Positions 18,523 through 21,532 of a stretch of 26,108 nucleotides of DNA are shown here, one piece after another. This stretch comes from a virus: the IMG/VR virus record IMGVR_UViG_3300032229_000191, positions 1 through 26,108 of that record, one strand, 5' to 3'. Position 1 is the first letter of the stretch. Every line of letters starts with the position of its first letter. The notes under the pieces are model-generated. The model worked only from the letters and a program-made list of their open reading frames with translations, searched no databases and had not been told where the DNA came from. A program made the translations under genes and the position numbers.

Positions 18523-18840
18523 ATGCCAGTAGATAAGCCAAAACCAGGAGAAACACAAGAAGAATATTTAAAATATTGTATACCCGCAGAAATAAATGAG
18601 GGTATGGAAGCAGACCAAGCAGCAGCAGTATGTTATTCTTATTGGGATAAAGATAAGATGAGTAAGATAAAAGATACTTCAGCTAAAGTAATGGCTAAGA
18701 TTGTATATAATGTAAAGTTTAAAGGTATCAATTTAGCAGAAGATGGTGACCCGTGCCAGTCAGGATATACTCAATACGGAACAAAGGATATGGATGGAAG
18801 AGAAGTTCCGAATTGTATACCAGATGAAAAAGAAGATTAA
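18523..18840 (+). CDS. Small Cys-motif protein of phage head-associated type
   Basis: 105 residues with two recognisable pieces. Residues about 12-43 (EEYLKYCIPAEINEGMEADQ, AAAVCYSYW) follow the pattern EExxxxCIPxxxxEGxxxDQAxAICxxxW, which occurs at the ends of phage portal and protease proteins. Residues about 76-100 (GDPCQSGYTQYGTKDMDGRE, VPNCIP) follow NPCxxGYxxxGxKxxxGxxVPNCVP, another short module of virion proteins in many phages. Here both are on a stand-alone gene a short distance after the protease, as though pieces of a longer protease fusion had separated. The stop overlaps by four bases the stop of the antisense endonuclease gene. Confidence 0.6.
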   Translation: MPVDKPKPGETQEEYLKYCIPAEINEGMEADQAAAVCYSYWDKDKMSKIKDTSAKVMAKIVYNVKFKGINLAEDGDPCQSGYTQYGTKDMDGREVPNCIPDEKED

Positions 18841-19325
18841 TCAGTAGGATATTTCCATCTGAATCCTCTGTATGTTCCTTTTGAAACTATAGCACCTCTT
18901 ATTGTAGATGGATGACCATTTATTGATTTAGCTGCTTCTTTAGTAGAAGAAAAAATATTAAGAATATTCCAATTTAAATCACATTGTTGAGTTATTTTGG
19001 AATATTTTTTTGCAATAATTTGACCACCTTTTCTACTTTTTTCTAATTCACCTTCTCTATTTTCTTTCCATTGTTTAGTAGCAGATATCCTTCCGGCCTT
19101 TTTTACATTTTCTATTCTAAACTTTTCGGTAGATTGTTTATATGTTGAAGTATCTATTTTATATCCGTATTGTTTTTGTAATTCAATCTCTCTTTTAGAT
19201 GCAATATCAATATCAGAATGAGTTTCTAATATTTCCCAATCAGATTTTGTTTGTTGATTTATTCTATTGTTAGGATTCTTAGTACAACCAATCTTAATTC
19301 CAGGTATATGATAGATGTAATACAT
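18837..19325 (-). CDS. GIY-YIG homing endonuclease with C-terminal DNA-binding repeat
   Basis: 162 residues, the only convincing antisense gene. Residues 2-25 (YYIYHIPGIKIGCTKNPNNR) are a GIY-YIG start with degenerate signature and a likely catalytic Arg at 21; the Glu at about 46-48 (ASKREIELQK) is the expected metal-binding residue. The middle (70-110) is basic. Residues about 112-160 (CDLNWNILNIFSSTKEAA, GHPSTIRGAIVSKGTYRGFRWKY) are a NUMOD1-like helix-turn-helix DNA-binding module of free-standing homing endonucleases. It has its own Bacteroidota-type promoter (19349-19380). It lies between the virion module and the bS21 gene and overlaps its convergent neighbour by four bases, consistent with a mobile gene inserted between modules. 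Confidence 0.85.
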   Translation of the reverse strand: MYYIYHIPGIKIGCTKNPNNRINQQTKSDWEILETHSDIDIASKREIELQKQYGYKIDTSTYKQSTEKFRIENVKKAGRISATKQWKENREGELEKSRKGGQIIAKKYSKITQQCDLNWNILNIFSSTKEAAKSINGHPSTIRGAIVSKGTYRGFRWKYPTD

Positions 19326-19384: not shown

Positions 19385-19522
19385 ATGGAAGATAGATTAC
19401 TACAATTAGAATTAGATTCAGAACATATTAAGAGAGATATCGAAGAATTGAGAGATATTCTTATAGCTTTATCCTGGAGTATAAGTGAATTAGAGAAAAA
19501 GATAGTTCAGTCCCATTCTTAG
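19385..19522 (+). CDS. Unknown 45-residue helical protein
   Basis: Starting at the ATG at 19385 (MEDRLLQLELDSEHIKRDIE), the product is 45 residues. It is mostly one amphipathic helix with charged repeats and LIALSWSISELEKKI near the end, likely a small coiled coil. A longer reading from 19334 would need TTG and would begin in the promoter region, so I prefer 19385. It precedes the bS21 gene by 32 bases and probably shares its transcript. No function recognised. Confidence 0.5.
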   Translation: MEDRLLQLELDSEHIKRDIEELRDILIALSWSISELEKKIVQSHS

Positions 19523-19554
19523 CGGGCAAGGTTAAAAGATAAATACAAAATGAT

Positions 19555-19797
19555 ATGAGTGTTACATTAGTTACAATTGAGGTTAGAAATAACGATATTA
19601 CAAAGGCATTGAAGTTATTTAAGAAAAGAGTAGAGGATAGTGGACATCTTCAAGAATTGAGGGAAAGAAAAGAATATAAAAAACCTTCAGTAGTTAAAAG
19701 AGAAAAAATGAATAAGGTTTTGTATAAAGCTAAAAAGGCTAGACAAAACGAAATAGATAGAGAGAATGGGGTAACCCATAGAAAGAAGACCAAATAG
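19555..19797 (+). CDS. rpsU: Phage-encoded ribosomal protein bS21
   Basis: 80 residues, strongly basic. VTIEVRNNDITKALKLFKKRVEDSG (about 6-30), LRERKEYKKPSVVKRE (35-50) and a lysine-rich helix (51-62) reproduce the bS21 pattern; KPSVVKR is the form I associate with Bacteroidota bS21 in particular. bS21 lies on the 30S platform beside the 3' end of 16S rRNA. In Bacteroidota, together with bS18 and bS6, it hides the anti-Shine-Dalgarno. A tyrosine at 57 (KVLYK) falls where I recall the host protein's anti-SD-contacting tyrosine. The last 18 residues (NEIDRENGVTHRKKTK end) are extra. No Shine-Dalgarno precedes the ATG. A terminator overlaps the stop codon. Phage bS21 genes are known from other uncultivated phages. 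Confidence 0.92.
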   Translation: MSVTLVTIEVRNNDITKALKLFKKRVEDSGHLQELRERKEYKKPSVVKREKMNKVLYKAKKARQNEIDRENGVTHRKKTK

Positions 19798-20904: not shown

Positions 20905-20915
20905 AATCATTCTAA
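20901..20915. promoter_or_regulatory. 15-bp perfect palindrome, possible operator
   Basis: TTAGAAT-C-ATTCTAA, 7-bp arms with a 1-base centre. It overlaps the stop of the small membrane peptide and precedes the DnaA-box hairpin. Its 7-1-7 geometry recurs at 21755-21769. Confidence 0.4.
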
Positions 20916-20920
20916 ATTAG

Positions 20921-20961
20921 AAAAAGTTATCCACATTCTTCGTGTTTGGGGATAACTTTTT
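20921..20961. terminator. 12-bp hairpin with T tail, carrying DnaA-box sequences
   Basis: AAAAAGTTATCC (20921-20932) is a perfect inverse of GGATAACTTTTT (20950-20961) with a 17-base loop. A and T runs at the ends make it a possible bidirectional terminator. The left part reads TTATCCACA (20927-20935), an exact DnaA box; the right part reads TTATCCCCA on the other strand (20947-20955), one mismatch away. It may therefore double as an initiator-binding site next to the replication gene. Confidence 0.7.
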
Positions 20962-21001
20962 ATACTTATATATAATATACATAAACTAAAAAAGAATATA
21001 A

Positions 21002-21532
21002 ATGGCACCACACAACACCTCAAAGATTATTAGAAGTGTAAATTCTTCTAAATTCAATTTCACACCAATCAGTAATGAGTTATTAAAATCAACTAAACTT
21101 TCTTTGGAAGCAAAGGGATTGTTATGTTTTATACTTTCGTTACCTGAGAATTGGGTAATTTACAAACAACAAGTTCAGAAATCATTAGACATGGCTCGAT
21201 TTAAATTCGATAGAATTTGGAAAGAATGTGCTGATAATGGATATATTACTACCCATAAGTTTAGAGATGGTGATGGTAAATTTTCATACTATTATGAAGT
21301 AACGGATGTTGTTTCCACCATTGTTGGGAAAACCGGCATCGGTAAAACCGACATCGGTAAACCGAACACTATAATAAAGAAAGAAGAAAAAAAGAAAGAA
21401 GAAGAAAAGATATATAGTAATAGTATAGTAGCTAATAGTATAGAAGCTAAGAAAGTTAATCCTAATACTCTTTTTTCTGAATTATTTTATTCTAATCCAA
21501 ATATTTCAGTAATAGAATACCTAAATCAATAA
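21002..21532 (+). CDS. Winged-helix phage replication initiator (replisome-organiser type)
   Basis: 176 residues. Residues about 8-98 carry the familiar opening of phage replication proteins: SKIIRSVNSSKFNFTPISNE, LLKSTKLSLEAKGLLCFILSLPENW, then a helix-turn-helix (VQKSLDMARFKFDRIWKECADNGYI) and the wing KFSYYYEV. A linker with the short repeat KTGIGKTDIGKP (about 114-125) follows, then a Lys/Glu-rich coil and a short C-terminal helix. Such proteins bind the phage origin and recruit a helicase loader or helicase. The DnaA-box hairpin directly upstream is a suitable target. No helicase or loader gene is seen in the window. The ATG at 21002 follows an A-rich leader. Confidence 0.78.
   Translation: MAPHNTSKIIRSVNSSKFNFTPISNELLKSTKLSLEAKGLLCFILSLPENWVIYKQQVQKSLDMARFKFDRIWKECADNGYITTHKFRDGDGKFSYYYEVTDVVSTIVGKTGIGKTDIGKPNTIIKKEEKKKEEEKIYSNSIVANSIEAKKVNPNTLFSELFYSNPNISVIEYLNQ

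Follow-up and report, generated by a model that had tools for sequence, protein, structure and literature searches.

No settled explanation exists for why phages carry genes for the ribosomal protein bS21. In Bacteroidota a single bS21 residue helps decide whether ribosomes read Shine-Dalgarno (SD) sequences. Y54 of Flavobacterium johnsoniae bS21 stacks on A1534 of the 16S rRNA, and strong-SD reporters are translated more when the protein carries Y54A or has lost its C-terminal region (McNutt et al. 2023, PMC9976891). Y54A alone gives wild-type-like colonies, and a weak SD (AGGA) has virtually no effect whatever the rpsU background (PMC9976891). Tyr54 is present in 54 of 61 bS21 proteins of Bacteroidetes phages, the other seven also being aromatic, and phage bS21 was proposed to be substituted into ribosomes and to serve late-stage hijacking (Chen et al. 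2022, PMC9723584).

We analyzed a bS21 gene in a 26,108-base virus record, which is a fragment and is called here, at its full length, the window. A first-pass annotation had proposed that its product either keeps the anti-SD hidden in favor of SD-less messages or makes specialized ribosomes. The general idea is already published (PMC9723584), and Tyr54 in phage bS21 is of a known kind; what is added here is that residue 54 is linked to initiation mode and that an Arg54 sister lineage stands in contrast to the window. Our literature search found no publication on SD use by bS21-encoding phages.

The window bS21

Judged by its sequence, the window ORF encodes a genuine phage bS21 with the masking tyrosine. 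The protein, MSVTLVTIEVRNNDITKALKLFKKRVEDSGHLQELRERKEYKKPSVVKREKMNKVLYKAKKARQNEIDRENGVTHRKKTK, scores above the curated cutoffs of Pfam PF01165 (S21; E value 1.5e-12, 47.5 bits, cutoff 27) and of the NCBIfam equivalog TIGR00030 (S21p; 43.5 bits, cutoff 28.95), and its best solved relatives in phmmer are bS21 chains. The complete 80-residue frame and the KPSVVKR motif named in the first-pass annotation were both confirmed, and its placement of Y57 at the host anti-SD tyrosine also held: phmmer pairs residues 12 to 57 without gaps with residues 9 to 54 of F. johnsoniae bS21 (7jil chain z), so that Y57 corresponds to Y54 because the two stretches have equal lengths, and MAFFT puts both tyrosines in one column (Table 1). 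The two proteins share a sequence core including KPSVVKR and the tyrosine at the A1534-stacking position (PMC9976891), but the window protein is 16 residues longer, is phage encoded, and has an mRNA without an extended SD.

Table 1. Features of the bS21 gene in the window
Feature	Position	Strand	Basis
Phage rpsU (bS21, 80 aa, ATG to TAG)	19555..19797	+	ORF translation, Pfam, NCBIfam, phmmer
KPSVVKR motif, residues 43-49, start of C-terminal helix	19681..19701	+	Translation, alignment
Y57 codon TAT, equivalent to F. johnsoniae bS21 Y54	19723..19725	+	phmmer, MAFFT; role from PMC9976891
C-terminal 23 residues: predicted helix to residue 71, then basic tail	19726..19794	+	AlphaFold2; host lengths
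SD-less rpsU leader, best 16S tail pairing -2.7 kcal/mol	19511..19554	+	Pairing scan; relatives' sequences
Intrinsic-terminator-like hairpin over last codons and stop codon	19781..19807	+	Hairpin search

The tyrosine is followed by 23 residues in the window protein and mostly by 9 to 11 (range, 6 to 14) in Bacteroidia hosts. The 18 extra C-terminal residues claimed earlier were therefore an overestimate; the excess is about 13 residues at the C terminus plus 3 before the tyrosine. An AlphaFold2 model from a 30-row alignment (mean pLDDT, 87.5) has helices at residues 15 to 29, 31 to 37, and 44 to 71, the helical fold with a basic C-terminal helix expected of bS21. The last predicted helix runs 14 residues past Y57, while the whole host proteins stop 6 to 14 residues after the tyrosine, and the extension is predicted to lengthen this helix. 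Compared with solved chains, the model gave a best Z score of 4.6 (rmsd 10.6 over 64 residues) with E. coli 30S chain U, 7jil not being among the aligned chains; the ribosomal contact considered was that of Y54 only, as described in later papers. The region of the bS21 gene holds two terminator-like hairpins, against 1.0 expected in shuffles, and the relative L002 shows the same hairpin and T-run.

In a tree computed with the residue-54 column omitted, the window protein and those of L002, L251, L004, L009, and L005 form one clade (98/89), separate from hosts and host-type phage bS21. The other five members carry Tyr (four) or Phe (one) at site 54 and are SD-less or unclear in their initiation signals. 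Because of these clade mates, and because 88 of 97 hosts are aromatic at this site, Y57 is more than a chance tyrosine. A host-derived gene carried as a passenger, with no role in infection, is very improbable: relatives differing at 14 to 49% of residues have kept the frame intact along with core residues and an aromatic at site 54, and viral ribosomal protein genes are under purifying selection (Mizuno et al. 2019, PMC6375957).

A larger clade (99/85) unites the window group with the Arg54 phages and L006, apart from hosts and host-type phages. Within it, L006 (Tyr, SD-less; VKPSTLKRLQKQDAIYRENK) and L034 (Arg, SD-using locus; VKPTTKRRLQKQKAIREEQK) are nearly alike around site 54. Placing all Tyr54 sequences together was not rejected by the AU test (p 0.41 and 0.31), so that gain of Tyr54 by convergence within the phage clade is indistinguishable from its loss.

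Host and gene neighborhood

The window encodes a terminase, a portal, an XkdF-type protease, and tail genes, a siphovirus-like set, with bS21 on the same strand. Its TerL is nearest to those of Flavobacterium psychrophilum phages (37.6%), and TerL relatives are present in 13 of 295 Bacteroidia genomes. A host among the Bacteroidota is strongly indicated. The Bacteroidetes phages of Chen et al. (PMC9723584) resemble the window in an aromatic residue 54, predicted Bacteroidetes hosts, and nearby structural genes. They are, however, 293- to 331-kb myoviruses whose bS21 gene lies within the TerL/portal/MCP region and opposite in strand to the structural genes; by this description of gene set and strand, the window falls outside their clades a to e.

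Between the structural module and the bS21 gene lies a minus-strand ORF (18837-19325) that looks GIY-YIG-like by eye and had no Pfam or PHROG match; the relative L003 lacks it at the corresponding place. An inverted repeat (20915-20967) containing the DnaA-box-like TTATCCACA directly precedes the replication-initiation-like gene at 21002 and is a possible replication origin. Searches of the window for Rfam families and tRNAs returned no match.

Residue 54 and SD use across phages

In IMG/VR, 199 bS21-bearing phage loci were identified, and the comparison was made on about 125 distinct phage versions and on 97 distinct host bS21 sequences from Bacteroidia genomes. Hosts carry, in the Y54 column, Y (80), H (6), R (5), F (2), L (2), K (1), and S (1). 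For each phage locus, its own ORFs were scored for pairing of -6 kcal/mol or better between positions -22 and -4 and the Bacteroidota 16S tail, which we take to be ACACCUCCUUUCU, and a region 50 bases further upstream served as the mock control. ORF starts were set to the first ATG, which adds noise for SD-using and SD-less phages alike.

By this measure the window is SD-less (SD at 2 of 25 genes; mock, 3 of 25), with A at position -3 in 80% of genes. Phages with Tyr54 had SDs at 25 of 383 ORFs (mock, 53) and phages with a nonaromatic residue 54 at 631 of 1,337 (mock, 151). Counted by distinct locus, Tyr54 phages were SD-less in 31 cases, SD-using in none, and unclear in 1; for nonaromatic residues the counts were 5, 73, and 8. 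This is an association and not a causal test, because about two changes of SD use suffice to explain the bS21 tree; only two independent pairs were available for a sign test, which thus had no power. Much of the pattern tracks host phylum, and this alone may account for both Tyr54 and SD-lessness. An aromatic at site 54 is also missing from five SD-less phages and from some Bacteroidia hosts, which do not use SDs. The idea that Arg54 is sufficient for SD use was rejected, since the stretches examined showed no SDs in two Arg54 phages (L252 and L247) or in five of the sampled Bacteroidia hosts that carry Arg54. The host sequences are L091, L102, L128, L132, and L133.

For the window, both the tyrosine position and the SD-less genes agree with the earlier suggestion that the anti-SD is kept hidden for SD-less messages. 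The suggestion of specialized ribosomes found no support for the window phage and fits the Arg54 sister lineage; the first-pass interpretation as a whole is partly supported. As Chen et al. 2022 see it, such ribosomes would prefer phage mRNAs through a divergent N-terminal half and a longer C-terminal helix, the tyrosine serving only as an anchor. The N-terminal half is indeed unlike that of hosts (VRN.DI versus VKEGENI) and clusters with that of bS21 from other phages, and the C-terminal helix is predicted to be longer. The window genes, however, carry no distinctive initiation signal beyond A-rich, SD-less leaders, which according to the literature host genes have as well, and we regard this explanation as quite unlikely.

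The bS21 leader and host autoregulation

In F. johnsoniae rpsU is autoregulated; a 9- to 13-bp SD is frequent on host rpsU genes, and bS21-free ribosomes translate rpsU (PMC9976891). No such extended SD precedes the window gene, whose leader is identical in L002 and shared in part by L004. With a threshold of -12 kcal/mol or better, not one of the 40 aromatic phages scored as SD-less or unclear had an extended SD at its bS21 gene, versus 18 of 88 aromatic hosts (Fisher p 8e-4). As 78 of the 97 sampled hosts also lie above -12 kcal/mol, the lack of this element in phages carries information only in comparison with hosts whose rpsU is autoregulated. We infer that phage bS21 would escape host feedback, in hosts with an extended SD only. 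One genome, that of Tenacibaculum skagerrakense (G001), has four bS21 genes (L072, L074/L150, L062/L165, and L151), with an extended SD on L072 only.

The reading we favor, and consider somewhat probable, is that the window bS21 enters host 30S subunits, hides the anti-SD to the benefit of SD-less phage mRNAs, and is free of the host's autoregulation. During infection it would join the subunits by replacing or supplementing host bS21, and Y57 would stack on A1534 as host Y54 does, so that the anti-SD stays hidden, which would suit SD-less phage genes. Because its mRNA lacks the extended SD that couples many Bacteroidia rpsU genes to bS21-free ribosomes, SD-blind ribosomes could make phage bS21 without that feedback; by filling bS21-free ribosomes, the protein would reduce host rpsU translation as well. 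Entry into ribosomes has a precedent in the bS21 of Pelagibacter phage HTVC008M, likewise phage encoded and shown to enter E. coli ribosomes (PMC6375957). It is 40% identical to the window protein over residues 1 to 66, but its phage infects an alphaproteobacterium, outside the Bacteroidota anti-SD system.

Another role would be dosage: with bS21 loosely bound and limiting, a host-like copy added late would complete ribosomes and leave their specificity unchanged. Initiation on SD-less mRNAs is poor when ribosomes lack bS21 or its C-terminal region (PMC9976891), the tyrosine is kept, and the phage gene is free of SD control and ends in a putative terminator, all of which would suit such a role. 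The window protein is only 30 to 44% identical to sampled hosts and sits in a separate phage clade, however, a divergence in excess of what a top-up calls for, and we hold this account to be unlikely.

The Arg54 sister lineage

Whole-record maps were made for four Arg54 phages: G298 (288 kb; pieces L015, L319-L324, and L335-L343), G299 (287 kb; L033, L330-L332, and L344-L355), G300 (130 kb; L026 and L367-L373), and G301 (94 kb). Record-wide SD frequencies were near background in G298 (16%; mock, 15%), G299 (16%; mock, 13%), and G300 (22%; mock, 19%), and 24% against 8% in the shorter G301. SDs were concentrated within 12 kb of bS21 in G298 (12/25 versus 40/295 elsewhere; p 1e-4), G299 (11/23 versus 38/286; p 2e-4), and G300 (10/27 versus 14/83; p 0.035); the difference in G301 (8/24 versus 10/52) was not significant. 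A first hint from the ±8-kb loci that Arg54 phages are plain SD users was rejected for G298 to G300, where SDs outside the cluster are near background.

In the ~290-kb phages, about 50% of genes in the virion-gene cluster around bS21 have SDs. Their motifs, AGGAGA or AAGGA, start in most cases 8 to 13 bases ahead of protease-side, scaffold, and capsid genes. The phages' own bS21 gene is SD-less in G298 to G300 and has an SD in L010, L011, and L239. Twenty SD genes outside the cluster were tested; tail tube, baseplate wedge, and endolysin are among the families recognized, and DnaB helicase, thioredoxin, and a threonine-dehydratase-like protein are examples that depart from this pattern. No SD cluster around bS21 appeared in the Tyr54 records G303 (321 kb; 1/25) or G304 (348 kb; 0/27). 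Discordant ortholog pairs favored SDs in the Arg54 phages over G303 by 15:4, 20:3, 7:0, and 7:1, and over Flavobacterium phage immuto, which has a homologous cluster and no annotated bS21, by 6:0, 6:0, 3:0, and 6:0.

Promoter evidence on hosts covers G298 and G299, the leaders of G300 being too few. The Bacteroidota-type consensus, which we take to be TTG-N16-21-TAnnTTTG, has 17 forward matches and no reverse match in the leaders of G298, where 0.6 are expected, and 16 forward and 3 reverse matches in those of G299, where 0.5 are expected; judging from these promoters, both phages most likely infect Bacteroidota. Both ~290-kb phages also carry a tmRNA (L319 19030-19404; L332 18606-18951); the G299 tag, GVNNYALAA, resembles Bacteroidota tags.

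Arg54 together with SDs is essentially one lineage. Microcystis phage Mel-JY01 has an annotated rpsU (L376 17152-17379) that encodes Lys54. It shares the protease-bS21-scaffold-capsid gene order with the Arg54 phages and has a similar SD frequency, so that the SDs of the Arg54 phages may go back to an ancestor whose host read SDs.

The Arg54 lineage may do the opposite of the window protein. We can offer only tentatively, as a possibility on the doubtful side, that residue 54 is an initiation-mode switch. Tyr54 phages such as the window's would hide the host anti-SD and have SD-less genes. The ~290-kb Bacteroidota phages with Arg54 would lack the masking residue and bear SDs mainly on virion genes, with their own bS21 gene SD-less in most, and late in infection their bS21 would enable SD-blind host ribosomes to read SDs.

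Residue 54 thus tracks the initiation signals of these phages. Since Tyr54 and Arg54 lineages occur within one clade, the question of why phages carry bS21 can be reduced to a Tyr/Arg swap, and the Arg54 contrast makes both proposals, a hidden anti-SD and specialized ribosomes, directly testable.
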